DNA from: Chlamydiota bacterium
GTDB taxonomy: Bacteria > Auribacterota > Tritonobacteria > UBA1439
Assembly (NCBI GenBank): GCA_012729785.1
Contig: JAAYCL010000023.1
Coordinates: 25,684-89,683, forward strand
Length of the DNA stretch: 64,000 nt
Direction of reading: 5' to 3'
Positions 4,364 to 15,858 of this stretch are shown piece by piece. Each line of letters begins with the position of its first letter. The first letter of the stretch is position 1. The translations under genes were made by a program, and so were the position numbers. Under the pieces are notes generated by a model. It did no database searches. It saw only the letters and a program-made list of their open reading frames with translations, and was not told where the DNA came from.

Positions 4364-4392
4364 TTGACATCTCCGTCTAAATGCCCTAGGAT
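4364..4392 (+). promoter_or_regulatory. Sigma-70-type promoter of the ketosynthase cluster
   Basis: TTGACA (4364-4369), a 17-bp spacer and TAGGAT (4387-4392) make a near-consensus housekeeping promoter in an otherwise very GC-rich spacer. Predicted transcription starts near 4399. This leaves a leader of about 100 nt before the first ketosynthase ATG at 4503, and argues against an in-frame ATG at 4398 being used. Confidence 0.7.
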
Positions 4393-4502
4393 TTTTCATG
4401 CTGCCGGGCGCGCGTCTTTCCGTGGCCCGGCTCTCCTTTGTGCCCCGTCGGATGCCGCAGGCGCCGCCTCGCGGCCGCCCGGGGGCCGGTCGACGGAGCG
4501 CC

Positions 4503-5798
4503 ATGATCCAGGACAACCGCAGGGTGGTCATCACCGGGATAGGGGTGATAAGCCCCCTGGGCCTCAGCCGGGACGAGTTCTGGACCAACCTCACGGCGCG
4601 GAGATCCGGCGTCTCCCGCATCACCCTCTTCGACACCCGGGGGTTCCCCACCAGGATCGCCGCGGAGGTGAAAGGATTCGACCCGCAGAGGTACATCGAG
4701 AAAAAGAAATCGCTCAAGGTGATGATCCGGGACATGCAGTTCGCCGTCGCCGCCGCGCGGGAGGCCGCCTCAGACGCGGGCCTCGGCGCCTCCGCCCCCG
4801 ACCCCGAGCGCGTCGGCGTGGTCTTCGGGGCGAGCATGATCTCGACCGACCCGTGCGAGCTGGGCCCCGCCATCAAACAGTCCCTCGGGAAGGACGGCCA
4901 GTTCGACCTTGTGCGGTTCGGCGCCGAGGGGATCCAGAACCTCTTCCCCCTCTGGCTGTTGAAGCAGCTCCCCAACATGCTCGCCTCGCACGTCGCCATC
5001 ATGTACGACGCGCAGGGCCCGAGCAACACCATCACCAGCGGCTGTTCCGCGAGCGCCCACGCGATCGGCGAGGCGTTCCGCATCATCTCCCGCGGCGCCG
5101 CGGACCTCGTCATCACCGGCGGGGCCAGCTCCTGCATCACCCCGCTCAAGCTCGCGCGCTACCACCGGCTCGGCGTCCTCTCCACGCGCAACGACGAGCC
5201 CGAGAAGGCGAGCCGTCCGTTCGACGCCGCGCGGGACGGGTTCGTCATCGGGGAAGGGGCCGGGATGCTGATCCTCGAGGAGCGGGAGCGCGCGCGGGCG
5301 CGGAACGCCCGGATCTACGCCGAGATCGCCGGCTACGGGAGCGCGGTGGATATGCAGAGCGGCCCCGGCGGAACGATCGAGCCGTCCAGCAAGGCGCGCG
5401 CAATGCGGATGGCGCTCCTTGAGGCCGAAACGGAACCCGGCGGCGTCGACTACATCGGCGCCCACGGGAACTCGATCCCGTTCACCGACCGCCTCGAGAC
5501 GCTGGCGATCAAGGAGATCTGGGGGAAGCGGGCCCGCGCAACCCCGGTCAGCTCCATCAAGGGGCAGATCGGCGATCTGGGGCCCGCCTCGGGGGCGGTC
5601 GGGGTCATCGCAACCGCGTTGGCCATCGAACGCGGGATCATCCCGTGCACCCTCAACTGGGAGAACCGCGACGCGGACTGCGATCTGGACTACGTGCCGC
5701 ACCCGCGCGAGGCGGCGCTGCGCTGCGCCGTCTGCAACTCGTTCGACTTCATGGGACAGAACGTGAGCCTGGTGCTGCGAAATCCGGGGTGCGCCTAG
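4503..5798 (+). CDS. FabF-like beta-ketoacyl synthase with His-to-Asp active-site change (KS1)
   Basis: 431 residues with the full thiolase-fold KS length. The nucleophile Cys181 is in SGCSASAHAIG and the first catalytic His321 in GAHGNS. At the position of the second catalytic histidine (FabF KSMTGH) the sequence reads KGQIGD, so Asp358 replaces His. The Cys-His spacing (140) and His-His/Asp spacing (37) match E. coli FabF exactly, so the alignment is secure. Lys353 of the same motif is kept. Loss of this His should impair malonyl decarboxylation/condensation, so this subunit may act as a partner (chain-length-factor-like) or acyl-transfer enzyme (inference). ATG 4503 is preferred over ATG 4398, which lies at the promoter start point. 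The next gene begins directly after the stop codon. Confidence 0.9.
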   Translation: MIQDNRRVVITGIGVISPLGLSRDEFWTNLTARRSGVSRITLFDTRGFPTRIAAEVKGFDPQRYIEKKKSLKVMIRDMQFAVAAAREAASDAGLGASAPDPERVGVVFGASMISTDPCELGPAIKQSLGKDGQFDLVRFGAEGIQNLFPLWLLKQLPNMLASHVAIMYDAQGPSNTITSGCSASAHAIGEAFRIISRGAADLVITGGASSCITPLKLARYHRLGVLSTRNDEPEKASRPFDAARDGFVIGEGAGMLILEERERARARNARIYAEIAGYGSAVDMQSGPGGTIEPSSKARAMRMALLEAETEPGGVDYIGAHGNSIPFTDRLETLAIKEIWGKRARATPVSSIKGQIGDLGPASGAVGVIATALAIERGIIPCTLNWENRDADCDLDYVPHPREAALRCAVCNSFDFMGQNVSLVLRNPGCA

Positions 5799-7091
5799 AT
5801 GGACGACACACGGCGCGTGGTGATCACGGGGCTCGGACTGGTCACGCCGCTCGGCATCGGCATCGAGCGGAACTGGGACGCCCTCGTCGAGGGCCGCTCC
5901 GGCGTGGGCCGGCTCACGCACTTCAACGCATCCGGCTACGCGACGCGGATCGCGGGGCAGGTCCGGGAGTTCGACGCCAGCCGGCTCCTCGGGGACCGCG
6001 GGGACATCGACTACCTCGGCGCGCACAGCCGCTTCGCCATCGCCGCCGCGCGCCTCGCCTACGAGGACGCGGGCCTCGGCGGCTGCCCCCTCGACCCTGA
6101 GCGGGTCGGCGTCTACCTCGGCTGCGGGGAGGGGGACCCGAGCTTCCTCTGGCTCGCGCAGCGCATCGCGGAGTCGCTCGAGGAAGACGGCGAGGTCTCC
6201 ATCCGGCGCTTCCTCTGCCGCAGCGCGGAGATGCTGAATCCGCGGCGGGACATCGAGTACGAGCCGAACAAGCCGGTCTACCATATCGCGAATCTGTTCA
6301 ACGCGCGGGGGCCCAACTCCAACTGCCTCACCGCCTGCGCCGCGAGCGCCCAGGCGCTCGGCGAGGCGGCCTGCGCCATCGTGCGCGGCGACGCCGAGCT
6401 GATGTTCGCGGGGGGGGCGCACTCGATGATCCACCCGATGGGGGTCGCGGGGTTCAACCTCCTCAACGCCATCTCCACGCGCAACGACGACCCCGAGAAG
6501 GCGAGCCGCCCGTTCGACCGGGAGCGCGACGGCTTCGTGATCGCCGAGGGGTCGGGGGTGCTCATCCTCGAGGAGGCCGGCCACGCCGCGCGGCGCGGGG
6601 CGCGGATCTACGGGGAGCTCCTCGGCTACGGCTGCTCCTCGGACGCCTACCGGATCACCGACATCCACCCGGACGGCCGCGGCGCCGCCCAGGCGATGCG
6701 GAACGCCCTGAACGACGCGCGGATCGCCCCGGACGAGGTGGGGTACATCAACGCGCACGGGACCTCCACGCAGATCAACGACCGCGTGGAGACCCTCGCG
6801 ATCAAGAAGGTCTTCGGGGAGCGCAGCCGCGCCGTGCCGGTCAGCTCGACCAAATCGATGATGGGGCACCTGATCGCCGCGGCGGGGGCGGTGGAGGCGG
6901 CCGTCTGCCTGCTCGCGATCGGGCGGGGGATCGTCCCCCCCACCATCAACCAGGAGTTCCCGGACCCGGAGTGCGATCTCGACTATGTCCCCAACAGGGC
7001 CCGCGAGGCGCGGGTGGAGATCGCCCTCTCGAACTCGTTCGGTTTCGGGGGGCAGAACATCTGCCTCGTCCTCTCGCGCTACAGGGGGTGA
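5799..7091 (+). CDS. FabF-like beta-ketoacyl synthase, complete triad (KS2)
   Basis: 430 residues. Cys180 in TACAASAQALG, His320 in NAHGTST and His357 in KSMMGHL give the complete Cys-His-His set for decarboxylative Claisen condensation of acyl and malonyl units on an acyl carrier protein. The start ATG abuts the TAG of KS1 with no gap, so the two are almost certainly translated together and may form a KS-alpha/KS-beta-type heterodimer. No acyl carrier protein, ketoreductase or dehydratase gene is seen in the window. The pair must use the cell's fatty-acid ACP or distant partners (inference). General fatty-acid FabF is the alternative, but duplication and neighbours argue for a specialised pathway. 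Confidence 0.93.
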   Translation: MDDTRRVVITGLGLVTPLGIGIERNWDALVEGRSGVGRLTHFNASGYATRIAGQVREFDASRLLGDRGDIDYLGAHSRFAIAAARLAYEDAGLGGCPLDPERVGVYLGCGEGDPSFLWLAQRIAESLEEDGEVSIRRFLCRSAEMLNPRRDIEYEPNKPVYHIANLFNARGPNSNCLTACAASAQALGEAACAIVRGDAELMFAGGAHSMIHPMGVAGFNLLNAISTRNDDPEKASRPFDRERDGFVIAEGSGVLILEEAGHAARRGARIYGELLGYGCSSDAYRITDIHPDGRGAAQAMRNALNDARIAPDEVGYINAHGTSTQINDRVETLAIKKVFGERSRAVPVSSTKSMMGHLIAAAGAVEAAVCLLAIGRGIVPPTINQEFPDPECDLDYVPNRAREARVEIALSNSFGFGGQNICLVLSRYRG

Positions 7092-7097
7092 ACCGCG

Positions 7098-7943
7098 ATG
7101 CGATGGCTTGAGATCGACGGCGTCAGGTACGAGACCCTGCCGCTCTTCCAGCGGGCGTTCAACCGGGCGTTGCTGAACCCGCTCATCAACTACCTCATCC
7201 CGGCGCGGCTCCTCTCGGATTTCCTCAAGAAGAGCAAGAGCCCGCTCCTGCACGAGTCGATGCTGCGCCCGGGCGGCTGGCGGGCGATGAAGATCACCTA
7301 CGATGACGGGGTGCCGGTGGACTTCGTCGACAAGCGGATGCTGAAGGACGCCGTGCTCACCCTCAGCGCCAGGAACCGGCGGCGGATGGCGGCGCGCTCG
7401 ATCAGCGACCTGATCAAGAAATACCGCGTGAAGGGGGACGTCCACATCGTCGGCATCGGGACCGGCCCGGGGTTCAACGTCCTCGAGGCGATGGTGGACG
7501 CCAACACCGACAGGGTCTTCGCCTATTGCATCGACGAGGACGCGGAGGCGTTCGACTTCGGCCGCGCCCTGGCGTCCCGGATGGGGCTCGGGGAGCGGAT
7601 CCGCTACATCGCCGGCAACGCGATCAACCTGGAGCGTCTCCTCGACGTGGTGCCGCACATCGTCAAGATGGTGGGGATCCTCGAATATCTGAACGACGCC
7701 CAGGTGCGCGACCTCCTCCGGGTCAGTTACCGGAAGCTCTCGCCGGGGGGCGCCGTGCTCGCCAACAGCATGGTCTCGAGCCACGGCGTGGACCGCTATA
7801 TGCGCAGGATCTTCAACTGGCACCTGAACTACCGTTCCCCGGAAAGGATCGTGCGCCTCTTCGAGGAGTGCGGCTTCGGGGATTTCAGCCTCCGGTCGGA
7901 CCCCCTGGGGGTCTACTCGATCATCGCCGGTTCGAAGCGCTGA
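7098..7943 (+). CDS. SAM-dependent methyltransferase-like protein of the KS cluster
   Basis: 281 residues. The N-terminal 110 residues have no domain I recognise. From about residue 118 a Rossmann-type class I methyltransferase core begins with motif I GIGTGPGFN, followed by an acidic strand (YCIDEDAEAF) and a later PGGAVLANSM segment. The substrate cannot be read from sequence. It follows KS2 after 6 bp and precedes the GH3-like gene, so it probably modifies an intermediate or product of that pathway. A methyl-acceptor on a polyketide or lipid headgroup is a guess only. Confidence 0.75.
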   Translation: MRWLEIDGVRYETLPLFQRAFNRALLNPLINYLIPARLLSDFLKKSKSPLLHESMLRPGGWRAMKITYDDGVPVDFVDKRMLKDAVLTLSARNRRRMAARSISDLIKKYRVKGDVHIVGIGTGPGFNVLEAMVDANTDRVFAYCIDEDAEAFDFGRALASRMGLGERIRYIAGNAINLERLLDVVPHIVKMVGILEYLNDAQVRDLLRVSYRKLSPGGAVLANSMVSSHGVDRYMRRIFNWHLNYRSPERIVRLFEECGFGDFSLRSDPLGVYSIIAGSKR

Positions 7944-7981
7944 GGCGCTCCCGGCCGTCTCCCGAAGGGACCTCTGCGGCA

Positions 7982-9685
7982 ATGTACAGCAGTGTCTGCA
8001 CCGCCGTCGCGTACGGGTGGGCGAGGTTGCACGGCGTCAGGGCGCAGCGGGCCTTCCTCCGGCGGGGGGGGCGCTGCGCCGAAACGCAGCGGCGCGTCCT
8101 CCGGCGGAAGCTCGCCTGGGCCGCCGGCACCGAGTACGGCCGCCGCCACGGATTCGCCCGCATCGCCACGCCGGACGACTACCGCCGCGCCGTCCCGCTC
8201 GTCGACTACCAGACGATCTCCCCGCTCGTGGCGCGCGTGGTCGCGGGGGAAGGCGACATCCTCTTCCCCTCCCGCGAGCGGCTGCTGATGTTCGCCATGA
8301 CCAGCGGGACCACCGCGACGCCGAAGTACGTCCCGGTGACGGAGCGCTACCTCGCCGAGCTCGCGGAGGGGAACTTCGTCTGGGGGATGCGCCTCCTGCG
8401 GGACCACCCCGCCGCCATCGCGCACAAGATACTGCATATCGTCTCCCCGAGCAGGGAGTCCGCCACCCCCTCGGGGATCCCGTGCGGCGCGGCGACCGGG
8501 CTCGTCGCCGAATCGCAGCGGCGGATCGCCCACCTGAAGTACGCCCTCCCGACGGCGGTGTACGGCATCGGCGACTACGGGCTGAAGTACCTGTGCATCC
8601 TCCGGCTCGCCCTCCAGAAGAAGATCAGCCTCCTCATCGCGGCCAATCCGAGCACGCTGGTGGCGCTGGGGCGCCGGTTCGAGGAGCGCGCGCCGGCGCT
8701 CGTCCGGGACCTTCGCGACGGCGTCTTCCACGAGGCCGGCGCCCTCCCCCCCGCCGTGCGGGCAGTCGTCGCCCGGCAGCTCCGGAAGGACCCCGCGGGG
8801 GCGCGCCGGCTGGACCGGATCCTTGCGGCGAACGGGAAACTTCTCCCGCGCGACGCCTGGCCGGAACTCGAGGTGATCGGTTGCTGGACCGGCGGGACGC
8901 TCACGCCGTACCTCGACCTCGCGCGGGCGTACTGGGGCGACCGGCCGCTGCGCGACCCCGGGCTCATCGCCTCCGAGGGGCGGATGACCATCCCTTTGGA
9001 GGACGGGGACGGGGGCGGCGTGCTGGACGTGGGGAGCCACTTCTACGAGTTCATCCCGTACGGCGAGGAGGAGGCGGGGGCGACGCTTCTCGCCCACGAG
9101 CTGGAGGTGGGGAAAAGCTACTTCATTATCCTGACCACCTCCTCGGGCTTCTTCCGGTATAATATCTCCGACGTCGTGAAGGTGACCGGCCGGTTCGGCG
9201 ACACCCCGGTGCTCAGATTCCTGCACAAGGGAAGCCGCATCAGCTCCCTGACCGGTGAGAAGATCACCGAGCACCAGGTGGTGGAGGCGTTCAGGGAGTG
9301 CGAGCGGTCGCTCGGCCTCGCGGTCCCGCAGTTCACCGTCTGCCCCGGATGGGGCGACCCTCCCCGCTACTTCATCCTGATCGAGGAGCAGGGCGGAGGC
9401 CCCGTTTCGGCGGGGGAGGGGGGCCGGCGCTGGGCGGAGGCGGGCGCCCTCTTCGACCTCGCCCTCGGGCGGGCGAATATCGAGTACCGGGGCAAGCGCG
9501 ACTCGGGGCGCCTCGGGATGCCGGTCGTGCGCCTGGTCGAGCCCGGCTCGTTCGACCGGGACAAGTGCGCGCACGTCGGCAGGAGCGGGGGGAGGATGGA
9601 ACAGTACAAGCACCCCTACCTGAGCCCGCAGATCGACCATTGCGCCCGGTTCCGCCTCTCGGAGCCGGAAGACGGACGCGGCTGA
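7982..9685 (+). CDS. GH3 auxin-responsive-promoter-family acyl-adenylating enzyme
   Basis: 567 residues, full length for GH3 proteins, which belong to the ANL (acyl/aryl adenylate-forming) superfamily. The ATP-binding P-loop-like motif reads TSGTTATPKYVPVT near residue 105. A central GSHFYEFIPYGEEE segment and the FRYNISDVVKVTG motif (about 392-404) are typical GH3 signatures. Plant GH3 enzymes adenylate a carboxylic acid and conjugate it to an amino acid. Bacterial members are scattered and mostly uncharacterised. Here the enzyme would activate a carboxylate, perhaps a fatty or polyketide acid made by KS1/KS2, for amide or ester formation (inference). Start ATG 7982 begins the family alignment; longer in-frame starts overlap the methyltransferase gene. 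Confidence 0.88.
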   Translation: MYSSVCTAVAYGWARLHGVRAQRAFLRRGGRCAETQRRVLRRKLAWAAGTEYGRRHGFARIATPDDYRRAVPLVDYQTISPLVARVVAGEGDILFPSRERLLMFAMTSGTTATPKYVPVTERYLAELAEGNFVWGMRLLRDHPAAIAHKILHIVSPSRESATPSGIPCGAATGLVAESQRRIAHLKYALPTAVYGIGDYGLKYLCILRLALQKKISLLIAANPSTLVALGRRFEERAPALVRDLRDGVFHEAGALPPAVRAVVARQLRKDPAGARRLDRILAANGKLLPRDAWPELEVIGCWTGGTLTPYLDLARAYWGDRPLRDPGLIASEGRMTIPLEDGDGGGVLDVGSHFYEFIPYGEEEAGATLLAHELEVGKSYFIILTTSSGFFRYNISDVVKVTGRFGDTPVLRFLHKGSRISSLTGEKITEHQVVEAFRECERSLGLAVPQFTVCPGWGDPPRYFILIEEQGGGPVSAGEGGRRWAEAGALFDLALGRANIEYRGKRDSGRLGMPVVRLVEPGSFDRDKCAHVGRSGGRMEQYKHPYLSPQIDHCARFRLSEPEDGRG

Positions 9686-9700
9686 GCCGCGGAGGATTGC

Positions 9701-10453
9701 ATGCGGACGACGATGACGGCTGCGCTGCTGCTGCTGATCCTCGCCCCCCTCTCGGCGTCGGAGGAGGGGGAGGCGCCCGATCTGATGCGGCTCCTGGCCG
9801 CGGCGCGCCTCCACTACGCCGGCGTCACCGACTACACGGCGGTGTTCCACAAGCAGCAGCGCGTGGGAGGGGTGCTGCAGCCCGAGGAGAAGACGCAGTT
9901 CAAGTTCATGAAGCCGTTCAGCGTCTACATGAAGTGGATCGGGGGTTCGCACACGGGGAGGGAGGCGCTCTTCGTGCGCGGGAAGTACCACGACCGTCTG
10001 CTCGTGCATCTGGGGGGGATGGCCAACTATTTCGCCCCGACCATGGCGCTCTATCCCAACGGGATGCTCGCGATGCGGAACAACCTGCGCCCGATCACCG
10101 AGTCGGGAATGGAGAGCACCATCAACCTCATCGCCAGGGTCTGCGAGGAGGCCCGAAGGAACGGCGACCTGACGGTGCGGTATCGGGGGGAGGGGAACGT
10201 CGCGGGCCGGCCGACGCACATCTTCGAGCGCCTCCTGCCGAAGGGGAAGGGGTACCCGGCGCACCTGAGCCTGCTGGAGCTCGACAAGGAAACAGGCTAC
10301 CCGCTCTCGGTCCTCAGCTACGGGTGGGACGGGGAGCTGCTCGAGAAGTACCGGTACGAGCGGTTCCGCACGAATGTGGGCCTCACCGAACGCGATTTCG
10401 ACAGGGGAAACCGCGCCTATGCGTTCGGCCGCTTCACCGCGCCCATTCCCTGA
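9701..10453 (+). CDS. DUF1571 protein, LolA-like periplasmic carrier
   Basis: 250 residues with an N-terminal signal peptide (hydrophobic TAALLLLILAPLSAS). A domain matching DUF1571 follows: VTDYTAVFHKQQRVGG, then KFMKPFSVYMKW, GREALFVRGKY and a C-terminal RYERFRTNVGL. DUF1571 belongs to the LolA/LppX-like half-barrel group that shields lipid groups in the periplasm. SD GGAGG lies 7 bp before ATG 9701. Position within a ketosynthase cluster parallels aryl-polyene-type clusters, where LolA-like proteins help move the product to the outer membrane. That supports a lipidic, exported product (inference). Confidence 0.82.
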   Translation: MRTTMTAALLLLILAPLSASEEGEAPDLMRLLAAARLHYAGVTDYTAVFHKQQRVGGVLQPEEKTQFKFMKPFSVYMKWIGGSHTGREALFVRGKYHDRLLVHLGGMANYFAPTMALYPNGMLAMRNNLRPITESGMESTINLIARVCEEARRNGDLTVRYRGEGNVAGRPTHIFERLLPKGKGYPAHLSLLELDKETGYPLSVLSYGWDGELLEKYRYERFRTNVGLTERDFDRGNRAYAFGRFTAPIP

Positions 10454-10465
10454 GGGAGGACGGCA

Positions 10466-11635
10466 GTGCGCGTGCGCAGCCTGGTCGTGTACCGTGTCCG
10501 GGTCCCGTTCAGAACCGTCTTCAGCCACGCCCGCGCCTCCCGCGCCGAGACCGACAACGTCGTTGTCGAGGCGGTCACCGACGCCGGGGTGCGCGGGTTC
10601 GGCGAGGGGGTGCCGAGGGAGTACGTGACCGGCGAGACCCCCGCGTCGGCGATCGACTATCTCCGGACGCTCGACCTCGCCTTCCTCTCCGCGGGCTGGG
10701 GTTCCGCGGGGGAGGCCGTTCGGGCGCTGCGCGCCTGGGAGAAGGGGGCGGAGGAGCGCGGCGGGATATTCCCGGGCGCGGCGCGGTGCGCCTTGTCGCT
10801 GGCGCTCCTCGACGCGGCGGGGAAGGCCTGGAAGGTCGGCGCGGAAGCCCTCTGCGCGGAGGCCGCCGGGGCGGGCGCGGCGGGGGGGGCGCCTGAACGG
10901 GTGCGCTACAGCGCCGTCTGCTCGGGCGGGGAGCCGCGCGCGGTCGCACTCTCCTGCCTGAAATTCAGGCTCTACGGCTTCGCGGCCGTGAAGCTCAAGG
11001 TCGGGTGGGGGGAGGAGCGCGACGTCGCCCTCGTGCGCCTCGCGAGGAGGCTGCTCGGGCGGCGGACCGATATCCGGGTGGACGCCAACGGCAGGTGGAA
11101 TTTCGACACCGCGAGGCGTCTGATCCCCCGCCTCGGCGGGTTCGGCGTCTCGTCGGTGGAGGAGCCGCTCGCTCCGGAAGAGCGGGGCCGGCTCCCCGAG
11201 CTCAGGCGGGCAGCCGGGGTGCCGCTGATGCTCGACGAGTCCGTGCGCTCGAGCGCGGAGCTGCGCCGTCTCGCGGAGGCCGGCGCGTGCGACCTCGTGA
11301 ATATCCGCCTCTCGAAGTGCGGCGGGATCTTCGCGTCGCTGGCGCTCGCGGCGCAGGCGCGGGCGTCGGGGCTCGGGTTTCAGATGGGGTGCCAGGTGGG
11401 CGAGAGCGGGCTCCTCTCCGCGGCGGGGCGCCTGTTCGCGTTCCTCGCCCCGGATGCGCGCCACCTCGAGGGCTCGTACGACAGGCACCTGCTGCGGGAG
11501 AATCTGGTCGCCGAGGACGTTACCTTCGGCCGCGGCGGGTGGGCGCGGCGGCTGCCGGGCGCGGGGCTCGGCGTGACAATCGACCCTCAGGCGCTGGACC
11601 GATGCGCGGCGGAGAGGCTGCAACTGACGTTGTGA
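10466..11635 (+). CDS. Enolase-superfamily enzyme (muconate-cycloisomerase subgroup)
   Basis: 389 residues starting at GTG 10466 with GGGAGGA just upstream. It has the N-terminal capping domain and a TIM-barrel with all subgroup hallmarks: KLKVG (KxK general base, about residue 176), metal ligands in VDANGRW, VEEPL and LDESV, and the opposite-face Lys in NIRLSKCGG. Family members include o-succinylbenzoate synthase, dipeptide epimerase and N-succinylamino acid racemase. The sequence alone does not choose between them. In this cluster an epimerase acting on an amino-acid or dipeptide part of the GH3 product is conceivable (inference). Menaquinone OSBS is less likely because no other men genes are nearby. 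Confidence 0.85.
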   Translation: MRVRSLVVYRVRVPFRTVFSHARASRAETDNVVVEAVTDAGVRGFGEGVPREYVTGETPASAIDYLRTLDLAFLSAGWGSAGEAVRALRAWEKGAEERGGIFPGAARCALSLALLDAAGKAWKVGAEALCAEAAGAGAAGGAPERVRYSAVCSGGEPRAVALSCLKFRLYGFAAVKLKVGWGEERDVALVRLARRLLGRRTDIRVDANGRWNFDTARRLIPRLGGFGVSSVEEPLAPEERGRLPELRRAAGVPLMLDESVRSSAELRRLAEAGACDLVNIRLSKCGGIFASLALAAQARASGLGFQMGCQVGESGLLSAAGRLFAFLAPDARHLEGSYDRHLLRENLVAEDVTFGRGGWARRLPGAGLGVTIDPQALDRCAAERLQLTL

Positions 11636-12059
11636 CGAGGGCGTGCGGCGGGCGGGCGCATCGTCCGACGAAACGGACGGAGGCACTGGGACGCGGATGA
11701 ACGGGGAAGAGCGCGGCGAAGAACGGCTGCACGGCGGATCGGCGCCCCCGCCCGACGAAAGCCGGGCGGGGATGCGGACGGATGCGGGAGGGGCCGGCGG
11801 AGCGGACGGGCGGCGCGCCGGTCAATCCGGGACCGGGAACGTCCCGCCGCCCCGCGGGGAGGCCGACAGGGAGGCGCGCAGGCGCGGCGGAAGGAGGCGC
11901 AGGAGGCCGCGCGGTCCCGCCGGCCGCCGGGCGGGGGGAGACGGACACGAGGAGGGGCATCGCCGGGAGGAACGCCGGGACCGCCGCTTGGACGAGCAGG
12001 AACCTTGCGGCGGGGCCACGGGTGCGGATACGGACGGGACCGCGCCCGAGGTAAAGCGG
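11636..12059. other. Arg/Gly-rich open spacer before the hydrolase gene
   Basis: The 424 bp between the enolase-superfamily gene and the hydrolase start are extremely rich in CGG/GGC/GAC. They remain open in the hydrolase frame from ATG 11643 (also ATG 11697), and would encode about 139 residues of low-complexity Arg, Gly, Glu and Asp. No domain is recognisable. Either the hydrolase carries a disordered basic/acidic N-terminal tail or this is untranslated GC-rich spacer. I favour untranslated spacer because a better start with GAGG upstream exists at 12060. Confidence 0.5.
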
Positions 12060-12875
12060 ATGGTCATGGACGACGGGATCGCGCTCCAGTACCGGGACTG
12101 GGCGCCGCGGCATCCGAAAGGGGCCGTGATCTGCGTGCACGGCATCCGGAGCCACGGCGCCTGGTACCTCGGCTCCTGCGCCCGGCTCGCCGAACGCGGG
12201 TATCGGGTGCTGTTCCCCGACCGCCGCGGCTCAGGCCTCAATCGGGACGCGGGAACGCCGGGCGCCGAGCGGGTCGCGCGGTGGGTGGGGGACCTGGTGC
12301 AATTCGCCGCGCGCGCGTCCGTGGAACTGCGGGGGAAACCGGTGCACCTGCTCGGCATCTCGTGGGGCGGGCGCATCGCCGCGGCGGCGGCCGCGGCGGG
12401 GCGCGTCCGGGTGCGCAGCGTCGTCCTCTCCGCCCCCGGCATCGTCGCCTTGCGGGACTGCAGCATCGGCACGAAGCTCTCCGTCGCCACCGCGCTCCTC
12501 CTGAACCCGCGCCGCGACTTTTCGATACCGCTGCAGGACCCGGCCCTCTTCACCGACGACCCCGACGAGCGCAACTACATCGAGCAGGACCAGTTCGGGG
12601 TCCGGCGCGCGAGCGCGCGGTTTCTTTTCGAGAGCAGGAAACTCGAGCGCCTCGGGCGCCGGTCGCTGCGGACGCTGCGGACCCCGCTCCTGCTGCTCCT
12701 CGCGGGGCGCGACCGGATCGTGGACAACGCGAAGACGCAACGCCTCTTCGAGAAGTGCCCGGCCGCGGACAAGGTCTTGAAGGTGTACCCCGAGGCCCGG
12801 CACACGCTCGACTTCGACGCGTGCCGCGACGAGTATTTCGACGACCTCGCGGCCTGGTTCGACGCGCACGGATAG
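12060..12875 (+). CDS. Alpha/beta-hydrolase (lysophospholipase-like)
   Basis: 271 residues from ATG 12060. Motifs in order are the oxyanion VCVHGIRSHG type (ICVHGIRSHGAWY), the nucleophile elbow GISWGG, the acid in LLLAGRDRIVD and the catalytic His in PEARHTLDF. This is the arrangement of monoacylglycerol lipase/lysophospholipase-like serine hydrolases. A GAGG element lies about 8 bp before ATG 12060; ATG 12066 is also possible. A much longer reading from 11643 adds only low-complexity sequence. In this cluster it may release or trim an acyl chain (inference). Confidence 0.85.
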   Translation: MVMDDGIALQYRDWAPRHPKGAVICVHGIRSHGAWYLGSCARLAERGYRVLFPDRRGSGLNRDAGTPGAERVARWVGDLVQFAARASVELRGKPVHLLGISWGGRIAAAAAAAGRVRVRSVVLSAPGIVALRDCSIGTKLSVATALLLNPRRDFSIPLQDPALFTDDPDERNYIEQDQFGVRRASARFLFESRKLERLGRRSLRTLRTPLLLLLAGRDRIVDNAKTQRLFEKCPAADKVLKVYPEARHTLDFDACRDEYFDDLAAWFDAHG

Positions 12876-12957
12876 GGCGCCTGTGCGCCGGGTGGGGGGC
12901 CCCCCCCCGGGCGGGGACGCGCCCGGGCGGAAGGGGCCGATGACAAGGAGAACGGAG

Positions 12958-13950
12958 ATGCAGGCATTGGTGACGGGGGCGGCCGGGTGCGTGGGGAGCG
13001 CCCTGGCGGAGCTGTTGAAGGCCCGGGGGCACGAGGTGCGGGCGCTCGTGCGCGAGGGGAGCGACACCGCGTTCCTGAAAACGCTCGACGTGGAACTGAC
13101 CCGCGGCGACCTCGGCGACCGCCCCTCCCTCGACGCGGCGGTGCGGGGCGTGGACGCGGTCTTCCACTGCGCGGCGCTGGTGGGCGACTGGGTGAGCCTC
13201 GATGAGATGCGGCGGGTGAACGTCGAGGGGCTGGGGCGGCTTCTCGAGGCCTCGGCGGCGGCGGGCGTGCGGCGCTTCATATATATGAGCTCGATGGTGG
13301 TCCTCGGGGCGGACAGGCAGGACAACCTCGACGAGACCGCCCCGTACGTCTTCACCGGCGACAACTACAACACCACGAAGATCGAGGCGGAGAAACTGCT
13401 GATGGAGTTCGCCGCCGCGCACAAGCTCGCCGTCACGGTGGTCAGGGCCCCGTACGTCTACGGTCCCCGGGACCGGCAGATGTTTCCCCGCATCCTTCAG
13501 TACCTCGCCCGGGGGAAGTACGCCTACATCGGCGGCGGCGACGTCCCGTTCACGCTCGTCTACTCCGGGAACCTCGCCGAGGGGCTCCTCAAGGCCGCTC
13601 GGAACCCCGCGGCGGCCGGGAAGGTCTACAACATCACCGACGGCGCCCCGGTGACCCGCCGGCAGCTGATCGAGCGGATGGCGGACGAGCTCGGCCTCCC
13701 GCGGCCGAAGAAAAATGTCCCGTACCCGGTCGCCGTCGCCGTCTGCGCCCTCTGCGAGGCGGCGGCGAAACTGTTCCGGCTGAAGACCCCGCCGATCCTC
13801 AACCGTTTCCGGCTGAAGTTCATGACGGCGCATCTCACCTTCGACATCTCCAAAGCCCGCCGCGAGCTCGGCTACGAGCCGCGGATCCCGTTCGACCGGG
13901 CGCTGAAGGAGACGGTGGCCTGGTTCAAGGCGAACGGAAAGACGAGGTGA
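12958..13950 (+). CDS. NAD(P)-dependent epimerase / 3-beta-HSD-like SDR
   Basis: 330 residues of the extended short-chain dehydrogenase family. The nucleotide-binding motif is TGAAGCVGSAL at the N-terminus, FHCAALVGDW follows, the catalytic serine region is YMSSMVVLG and the active-site pair is YNTTK. The closest description is a 3-beta-hydroxysteroid dehydrogenase/isomerase-like protein. OleD of the long-chain olefin pathway, which reduces a beta-keto acid from head-to-head condensation, belongs to the same group. That makes a role in reducing a KS product attractive but unproven. ATG 12958 is chosen because AAGGAG lies 8 bp upstream; an earlier ATG at 12883 adds a Gly/Pro-rich leader. Confidence 0.85.
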   Translation: MQALVTGAAGCVGSALAELLKARGHEVRALVREGSDTAFLKTLDVELTRGDLGDRPSLDAAVRGVDAVFHCAALVGDWVSLDEMRRVNVEGLGRLLEASAAAGVRRFIYMSSMVVLGADRQDNLDETAPYVFTGDNYNTTKIEAEKLLMEFAAAHKLAVTVVRAPYVYGPRDRQMFPRILQYLARGKYAYIGGGDVPFTLVYSGNLAEGLLKAARNPAAAGKVYNITDGAPVTRRQLIERMADELGLPRPKKNVPYPVAVAVCALCEAAAKLFRLKTPPILNRFRLKFMTAHLTFDISKARRELGYEPRIPFDRALKETVAWFKANGKTR

Positions 13951-13957
13951 GCCGATC

Positions 13958-14935
13958 ATGATCCTTGTCACCGGGGCGAACGGCTACGTGGGCGCGCACC
14001 TCGTCGCGCGCCTCCGCGAGGAGGGGGCGGCGGTCCGCGCGCTCGTGCGGAGGGGCTGTTCCGGCGCCGAGGCGGAGTGTCTGCGGAAGACGGGCGCGGA
14101 GCTGGTCGAGGCCGACCTCGAGGAGGCCGGCCCCCTGGCCGCCGCGCTGGACCGGGCGGAGACGGTCGTGCACCTCCTCGGGAGCATCGAGCGTCCCCGG
14201 CGGGGCGGCTACCGGGGGATGCACACCGCCAAGACGGCGCTGCTCGCGCGAGCGTTCCGCGCGGAGGTCGACGCCCGGCGGCGGCGGGGCGGGTCCGGGC
14301 GCGGGCGGGTGGTGTACCTGAGCGCCCTCGGCGCCTCGCCAAACGCCGCGAACCTCTACGCCCGCACGAAGGGGGAGGCGGAGGAGGAGCTCAGGCGTTC
14401 GGGGCTCGACTGGGTGAGCGTGCGGTCGTCGCTCATCTTCGGGAGGGAGACGGGGAGGCGCGACAGCAAGATCGTGCGCAAGCTCGCCCGCCTCGCGGCC
14501 TCGGGGCGCGCGGTGCCGCTCGTCGGCGGGGGGAGGAACCGGATCCAGCCGATCTACATCGCCGACCTCGTCTCCTGTCTCCGGGCGGCGATCCTGGCCG
14601 ACGGCCCGCTCCGCGAGATTTGGGAAGCGGGCGGGCCCGCGCAGCTCATGCTCCGCGACGTGGCCCTCACGCTGATGCGGCTCTTCGGTAATCCGAACGG
14701 GATCGCCGCGGTCCCGTTCCCGGTGGCGTACCTGCTGGCCCTGTGCGCGCGCGCCGTGCGCGCGGAGAAGACGCTGAACCTCGAACAGGTGCGAATGTCC
14801 CGCCGCGACGCGGTCTGCGCCGCCAACCGCGCCCCCGCGGCCTGCGGCGGGCGCCTTGTCTCGTTCGAGGAGGGGATGGCGCGGACGATTTCGCGTTTCG
14901 GGCGCGAAGCGCTCCTGGGGGGGGAGGGGAGATGA
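13958..14935 (+). CDS. NAD(P)-binding SDR of the NDUFA9-like type
   Basis: 325 residues beginning [15 protein letters not shown], an N-terminal Rossmann motif. It continues with [21 protein letters not shown] and a YARTK active-site-like motif (Tyr-x-x-x-Lys as YARTK). This pattern fits the atypical SDRs related to complex I subunit NDUFA9 and YwnB-like proteins. These often bind NADPH without clear catalysis. The start lies 7 bp after the preceding SDR, and the stop overlaps the next start (ATGA), so it is part of the same operon. Substrate unknown. Confidence 0.82.
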
Positions 14936-15858
14936 TCTGGGTCGGCCTCGTCGCGGTCCTGGCGCTGGCGGCCTACCTGTGTAGCCTCACGGTCCACTAC
15001 GTCCGCCTGATCAGGAGCATCTTCCTCAACTCGACGATCTCGGCGCCGCCGCAGACGCGCTGGGAGATAGACGGCGAGGTGGTGAGGTTCCTCAGCCTCG
15101 ACGGCGTCGAGCTCAAGGGCGTCTTCGTCCCGTGCGCCTCCGGCGCGGCGAACGGGACGATCGTCTTCGCGCACGAGGTGGGGGCGGGGCTCAACTCCTA
15201 CGAGCGGTACTGCGCCTTCCTCCTCGACGAGGGGTACAACATCTTCTCCTTCGACTTCCGCGGCCAGCACGCCGAGGAGAACGAGCACTACAACCCGACC
15301 CAGTGGGCGAGCGAGAACGAGTACTACGACCTCCTGGGGGCCATCGCCTACGTGCAGGGGCGCGCCGACGTCGACCCCGAGCATATCGGCCTGTTCGGCG
15401 TCTCCCGCGGGGCCACCACCTGCCTCTGCGTGCTCGGGAGGAACCCGGGCGTCAAGGCCGTCGTCAGCGACGGGGCGTTCTCGACGATGGCGACGATGGG
15501 GAGCTATATCCGCCGATGGGCGCCGATCTACTTCCCCCGCTTCGTGGCGCCGCGACTTCCGAAATGGCTGATCGTCTATCTGAGTTTCCTCAGCCTGAAG
15601 TCGGCGCAGCGGCGGCTCGGTCTGCGGCTCCTCTCGCTCGAGTGGTCGCTCCGGAGGAACACCGACGTCCCCGTCTTCATCATCCACGGGAAGAAGGACC
15701 GCTACATCGAATCCCGCCTCGCCCCGTGGCTCTACGACCGGATCCGCGCCTCCAAGGAGCTCTGGATCGTCGAGGGGGCCCGGCACAACGAGGCGGTCCA
15801 GCTCGAGCCCGAGGAGTACCGGAAGCGGGTCACCGCCTTCATCCGCGAGTATCTCTGA
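14932..15858 (+). CDS. Membrane-anchored alpha/beta-hydrolase
   Basis: 308 residues with an N-terminal transmembrane segment ([17 protein letters not shown]). A dienelactone-hydrolase/BAAT-like alpha/beta-hydrolase domain follows: [16 protein letters not shown], nucleophile elbow FGVSRGA, acid in IHGKKDRYI and His in EGARHNEA. It starts inside the stop codon of the previous SDR (ATGA), which indicates translational coupling. It is the last gene of the cluster before the rplU promoter. The membrane anchor suggests it acts on a lipid-like or exported substrate (inference). Confidence 0.85.

Follow-up and report, generated by a model that had tools for sequence, protein, structure and literature searches.

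A conserved ketosynthase, GH3 and DUF1571 gene cluster in Auribacterota, with a related gene set in Planctomycetota, as the larger half of a proposed split assembly line

Highly reducing (HR) type II polyketide synthases (PKSs) and aryl polyenes are already described (PMC8358021, PMC8253772, PMC10698177), and a catalogue of matches to ketosynthase (KS)/chain-length-factor (CLF) pairs includes Planctomycetes, without description. In 2025 the planctomycete GH3 enzyme OlsH was shown to synthesise N-acyl-ornithine, which the alpha/beta hydrolase OlsI then O-acylates (PMC12493201), and Rattray et al. in 2009 noted Rhodopirellula FabF paralogues with Asp or Glu in place of Cys (PMC2649909). Here we analyse a 64,000-nucleotide stretch of contig JAAYCL010000023.1 (the window), from an assembly labelled Chlamydiota bacterium and placed by GTDB in the Auribacterota, which carries at positions 4364-15858 genes for two KSs, a methyltransferase, a GH3 enzyme, a DUF1571 protein, an enolase-superfamily enzyme (ENO), two hydrolases and two short-chain dehydrogenases/reductases (SDRs). 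On comparative sequence evidence this cluster is a real, conserved biosynthetic unit. As the best explanation of the whole we propose, with reasonable but not high confidence, a split assembly line that combines chain building, GH3 amide coupling, epimerisation and periplasmic carriage by DUF1571.

An earlier note on this DNA listed the ten genes as co-directional, in the order given below and behind a single promoter. Both points hold: all ten are present on the + strand, with each family assigned by Pfam, and the promoter recurs in relatives. The gene set, its conservation, the catalytic residues and the division over two loci were read from the sequence itself, and the LolA-type fold of DUF1571 was taken from a predicted model.

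4364..4392, + strand: sigma-70-type promoter, TTGACA-17-TAGGAT; equivalent box before KS1 in six family members
4503..5798, + strand: KS1, CLF-like ketosynthase, C-H-D (second His replaced by Asp); Pfam ketoacyl-synthase, residue alignment, tree
5799..7091, + strand: KS2, ketosynthase with intact Cys-His-His triad; Pfam ketoacyl-synthase, residue alignment, tree
7098..7943, + strand: S-adenosylmethionine (SAM) methyltransferase, Methyltransf_20-like; Pfam
7982..9685, + strand: GH3-family adenylating acyl-acid amido synthetase; Pfam GH3 N/M/C domains, motifs
9701..10453, + strand: DUF1571 protein with N-terminal hydrophobic leader, predicted LolA/RseB/LprG-type fold; Pfam, predicted model
10466..11635, + strand: ENO, muconate-lactonizing subgroup of the enolase superfamily; Pfam MR_MLE, nearest structures 2p88/2p8b/2p8c and 3jva
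12060..12875, + strand: HYD1, alpha/beta hydrolase (Hydrolase_4); Pfam, reading frame open from 11643
12958..13950, + strand: SDR1, OleD/HpnA-like extended SDR; Pfam Epimerase-type
13958..14935, + strand: SDR2, second extended SDR; Pfam Epimerase-type
14932..15858, + strand: HYD2, alpha/beta hydrolase with N-terminal membrane helix, candidate release thioesterase/acyltransferase; Pfam, alignment, fold search

Homologues refined the starts of KS1 (4503, not 4398), GH3 (7982) and HYD2 (14932). Intergenic gaps are 0 nt for KS1/KS2, 6 for KS2/methyltransferase, 38 for methyltransferase/GH3, 15 for GH3/DUF1571, 12 for DUF1571/ENO and 7 for SDR1/SDR2, and SDR2 and HYD2 overlap by 4 nt. The promoter matches the consensus at 10/12 positions, and the region holds three such sites where 0.4 ± 0.6 would be expected. 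A TTGAC[A/T]-N17-TAnnnT box lies 95-176 nt 5′ of KS1 in 6/6 family members examined, which makes it more than a chance occurrence. The host genome comprises 2.59 Mb in 45 contigs, and the cluster is flanked by housekeeping genes, ComEC on its 5′ side and Obg on its 3′ side.

The cluster was seen in every member of the window's family examined. The order of all ten genes is identical in the four other members whose contigs span it, and a fifth has the first five genes before its contig ends. ComEC is likewise conserved upstream within the family, so synteny at this level alone could reflect a merely conserved neighbourhood. Stronger evidence for a unit is recurrence in changed order outside the family: other Auribacterota families and Planctomycetota have the same gene set rearranged, typically as FabA-(FabG)-ACP-FabZ-KS1-KS2-HYD2-GH3-DUF1571-...-ENO-HYD1, where ACP is the acyl carrier protein. 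Outside Auribacterota, 68 GH3 loci had 4 kb or more of upstream DNA; they were sampled by similarity to the window GH3 and so do not give phylum-wide frequencies. The KS pair stands beside GH3 in 47 of them, and HYD2 is present in 50. The methyltransferase occurs in the Auribacterota versions and was not detected in those of Planctomycetota, and SDR1 and SDR2 lie within the cluster only in the window's family; judging by this distribution, the three are lineage-specific parts. A diagnostic long ACP is present in 110/294 sampled Planctomycetota genomes (about 37%). A search for KS1 relatives among viral contigs found none.

The concern that the KS pair, GH3-ENO-HYD1 and the SDRs are independent neighbours, adjacent through ancestry and not through common function, was raised with the earlier note. 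It draws on the conservation of ComEC and on lineages in which GH3-ENO-HYD1 occurs without KS genes, but the set is retained across phyla despite its changed order, and the genes share a single conserved promoter, short gaps and overlaps. We therefore regard independent neighbours as improbable. The loci with GH3-ENO-HYD1 and no KS genes nearby (L024, L058 and L104, including a Sumerlaeota metagenome-assembled genome (MAG)) fit an N-acyl-amino-acid module fed by different acyl sources, and perhaps such a module is free-standing.

Individual loci vary in their content. In Singulisphaera acidiphila (L121, NC_019892.1 7,796,519-7,809,836), FabA, ACP, FabZ, KS1, KS2, HYD2, GH3, DUF1571, ENO and HYD1 form one run, which also includes a NicO/DsbD-like membrane protein after DUF1571 and before ENO. 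L022 has DUF1571 genes in tandem (11596-13880), the second with a long N-terminal extension. Two additional genes, for a 301-aa protein without a Pfam match and a GNA1162-like/fn3 protein, lie within the cluster of L023 (4250-6503). A MAG contig labelled Candidatus Kuenenia stuttgartiensis (L061), a label that may be wrong, carries GH3-DUF1571-ENO-HYD1 with no KS pair nearby.

The earlier note found no ACP or ketoreductase (KR), which stands for the cluster and fails for the genome. A whole-genome search returned two ACPs, both on contig C42. The window contig has none, although it extends no less than 30 kb beyond the cluster on the 5′ side and 48 kb on the 3′ side, and the two loci are therefore separate. 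At C42 31,492-34,103 lies a block of FabA1, FabG, ACP (127 residues), a phosphopantetheinyl transferase and FabA2, a gene order also found ahead of the KS pair in the related genome L022. Four other family members have this five-gene block, in each case on a different contig from the KS cluster, and in sister lineages its genes and the KS genes are joined in one cluster. We conclude that the C42 block is very probably the partner of the KS cluster. FabA1 of this genome has His and Glu, and FabA2 has Gln and Glu, its His being lost; the dehydratase pairs of the E. coli aryl-polyene and Streptomyces HR-type systems likewise have one member with His and one without. In the Planctomycetota versions both dehydratases keep His, and in FabA1 the Glu is often replaced by Gln. 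A dedicated enoyl reductase was found neither in the KS cluster nor in the C42 block. Ordinary synthesis has its own FabF (644 bits) in this genome, along with an LpxC-FabZ fusion, and the presence of LpxC implies a lipid A-containing outer membrane.

The Cys-His-His triad of KS2 is intact in all homologues that could be read. Among KS1 relatives, Cys is replaced by Asp or Glu in 47/56 and the second His is lost in 51/56, and on these losses we read KS2 and KS1, with high confidence, as a ketosynthase/chain-length-factor pair. The pattern common among planctomycete KS1 proteins, Glu-His-Asn, is that of one of the Rhodopirellula paralogues in PMC2649909. KS1 proteins of the window's family retain Cys and have Asp at the second His position, and the window KS1 also keeps the first His; a KS1 of this kind may still load an acyl group but should not decarboxylate malonyl-ACP normally. 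In a maximum-likelihood tree with few reference sequences for the HR and aryl-polyene clades, the KS1 clan (support 93.1/96) and the KS2 clan (98.2/100), each including one S. acidiphila paralogue, are separate from the FabF of the same genomes, and equally from the KSs of aryl-polyene systems and the aromatic KS/CLF proteins of Streptomyces. Neither falls within the known HR or aryl-polyene clades, and KS2 has only a weak sister link to a Streptomyces HR-type KS (89.3/83). Both score below the FabF equivalog cut-off of 493.75 bits (KS1 413.6, KS2 490.0), which the FabF of the genome passes. The grouping with housekeeping FabF that the earlier note had named as a check was thus not found, and a duplicated housekeeping FabF is ruled out by the separate clans and the scores.

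Further KSs were seen outside these clusters. Two in S. acidiphila (NC_019892.1) branch with the KS2 clan (~2,105,166) and the KS1 clan (1,744,649), a possible second, unlinked pair. The genome of the window has a divergent ketosynthase in a 408-codon open frame (L172, G000:C37:66094-66243), and no ACP was found on its contig, C37.

A different account of the KS pair is a specialised fatty-acid route, in which KS1/KS2, the C42 enzymes and the housekeeping enoyl reductase make a particular saturated or mono-unsaturated acid, and no polyene, for a membrane amino lipid, and KS1 is regulatory or priming. FabF models are the best scorers for KS1 and KS2, OlsH converts ordinary free fatty acids to N-acyl-ornithine before OlsI O-acylates it (PMC12493201), and the occurrence of the cluster in every family member examined is what a membrane lipid would predict. 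However, two dedicated dehydratases, one of them degenerate, and a CLF-like KS1 suit polyene systems better, ordinary synthesis is already covered by the housekeeping FabF and LpxC-FabZ, and an enoyl reductase specific to the system was found in neither locus. On this balance we consider the fatty-acid route unlikely.

The window GH3 has all three Pfam domains (N, middle and C) and keeps the TSGTT, SEG and R-Y...D motifs, which serve adenylation in plant acyl-acid amido synthetases; that it forms an amide is likely. It scores 92 bits against the NCBIfam OlsH model, with a cut-off of 620, and is therefore not OlsH but a member of another GH3 subfamily. S. acidiphila carries both OlsH (24% identical to the window GH3) and, at another place in its genome, a separate GH3 orthologue (44% identical). 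An ornithine-lipid (OlsH/OlsG/OlsI) pathway with accessory genes would account for the company of GH3, a methyltransferase and an alpha/beta hydrolase, as in the olsHGI operon of S. acidiphila. The GH3 score and the coexistence of the two GH3 genes in one species speak against it, as do HYD1 and HYD2, which have no significant match to OlsI and are ruled out as its orthologues, and the methyltransferase, which matches OlsG weakly. We hold an ornithine-lipid pathway to be very improbable.

Aligned to 2p88, which we take to be an N-succinyl-amino-acid racemase, ENO has the Lys-x-Lys, Asp, Glu, Asp and Lys catalytic positions all in place. The next-best structure match is the dipeptide epimerase 3jva, with scores of about 100-124 bits, and we suggest tentatively, at somewhat below an even chance, that ENO epimerises an N-acyl amino acid. 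A MenC/MenH reading of ENO-HYD1 is ruled out, since no MenD was found in the genome above the cut-off and ENO is therefore not MenC. HYD1 probably starts at 12060, about where its conserved part begins. The 5′ extension of its frame (11643-12059) is an Arg/Gly/Asp-rich, low-complexity run of ~139 codons that is unlikely to be translated in this form. In HYD2 the Ser, Asp and His of a serine hydrolase are present, and other lineages place its gene between KS2 and GH3, adjoining both, which suggests chain release. Its fold search returned generic alpha/beta hydrolases, including esterases and one thioesterase, and so does not discriminate function. Where the earlier note saw no thioesterase of the usual kind, the dedicated release enzyme may thus be HYD2. 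The AlphaFold2 model of DUF1571 (pLDDT 87.5) matches RseB (Z 14.4), the Bacteroides LolA-type protein 4mxt (14.1) and LprG (12.1). This predicted LolA-type half-barrel resembles the lipid-binding LprG/LppX, and we judge the case for lipid carriage by DUF1571 to be evenly balanced.

The sketch in the earlier note, of a chain that is made, activated and joined in an amide, epimerised and transferred through the periplasm, fits the best relatives of each enzyme. In extending it we infer the chain type, amide partner, step order, epimerisation, export and destination. We propose that the ten genes form the larger part of a biosynthetic system divided between two loci, in which KS2 and KS1, together with the long ACP, the FabG-type KR and the active/degenerate dehydratase pair from C42, would extend an ACP-bound chain through cycles of condensation, reduction and dehydration. 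Since neither locus yielded a dedicated enoyl reductase, we favour a polyene-type chain over others and give it about an even chance. The membrane-anchored serine hydrolase HYD2 would probably release the acid, from which GH3 would then make an acyl-adenylate for coupling to an amine, with an amino acid as the likeliest candidate. Epimerisation of the N-acyl amino acid would fall to ENO, and hydrolysis or transfer of an acyl group to HYD1. The methyltransferase and SDRs would tailor the product, and DUF1571 would ferry the lipid through the periplasm, towards the outer membrane.

Several points weigh against this scheme. The chain could be a substrate for a housekeeping enoyl reductase and so need not be unsaturated, and the window KS1, with its Cys retained, is no textbook CLF. 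DUF1571 and ENO are in the minority (16/47 and 11/47) among the sampled non-Auribacterota GH3 loci with enough downstream DNA. GH3 enzymes vary in their acyl and amine partners, the function of enolase-superfamily members is hard to predict by sequence, and the roles of HYD1 and HYD2 are drawn solely from fold and position. The LolA fold modelled for DUF1571 is common to the stress sensors RseB/MucB and hence no proof of lipid carriage.

In the open-access literature searched we found neither a description of this gene set (divergent KS/CLF, long ACP, GH3, ENO and DUF1571) nor any mention of DUF1571; most subscription papers lie outside it, which makes this weak evidence of novelty. What appears to be new is the gene set and its spread among Planctomycetota, and not the working principle, which HR type II PKSs and aryl-polyene systems already exemplify. 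Related gene sets are widespread in Planctomycetota, including the genetically tractable laboratory species S. acidiphila, in which genes can be knocked out and at least four lipids are unassigned (PMC12493201); having the cluster, it allows a direct test of the pathway. Such a pathway would explain orphan families, namely DUF1571 and the Cys-less FabF paralogues of Rhodopirellula (2009), and would connect the chemistry of type II PKSs with amino lipids in a phylum whose membranes are poorly understood. A wider proposal is a phylum-wide, undescribed lipid class with a chain from a divergent HR type II PKS that is freed, coupled to an amino acid by GH3, D-epimerised as the N-acyl compound and delivered to the outer membrane via DUF1571 as a LolA-like carrier. 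We find it doubtful; if true, DUF1571 would gain a function.

The anammox ladderane-candidate clusters resemble this system in having FabF with a non-canonical FabF, FabZ and ACP (PMC4790861, PMC2649909) but carry radical SAM and phytoene-desaturase genes. Neither domain was found in the ten genes, the C42 block or the S. acidiphila cluster genes examined, and with these markers absent a ladderane assignment is ruled out. The OleA-D olefin pathway is ruled out as well: SDR1 resembles OleD (202 bits, with a cut-off of 580), but the condensing enzymes are FabF-type, not OleA-type, and the ligase is GH3. ENO shares the catalytic positions of 2p88 but reaches only about 100-124 bits against 2p88 and 3jva, and differs from them in its company with GH3. 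The S. acidiphila OlsH/OlsI/OlsG system also has a GH3 with a nearby methyltransferase and alpha/beta hydrolase, but no KS, ACP or DUF1571 is reported there, its GH3 is 24% identical and its hydrolases have no significant similarity.

The earlier note's view that the cluster matches no known type does not hold for its core, which follows the HR type II PKS/aryl-polyene plan of KS/CLF, KR, dehydratase pair, ACP and LolA-fold protein. With the aryl-polyene cluster of E. coli CFT073 it shares KS/CLF, KR, ACP, a SAM methyltransferase and a LolA-like carrier (PMC8253772), as well as two dehydratases, one without His. It differs in its full-length KS1, where the aryl-polyene CLF is half-length, and no third FabB-like KS, MMPL transporter, LolB-like protein or aryl starter enzymes were found in the two loci. 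Compared with HR type II PKSs (ishigamide-type polyenes), the window system differs in its GH3 amide synthetase, ENO, DUF1571 and long ACP, and in a KS1 that lies outside the actinobacterial CLF branch, with Cys replaced by Asp/Glu or kept. The two are alike in the KS/CLF pair, KR, dehydratase pair and ACP, and an amide-containing polyene product is known for HR systems. The dedicated ACP, KR and dehydratases stand at a second locus in the window's own genome and in the same cluster as KS/CLF in sister lineages.

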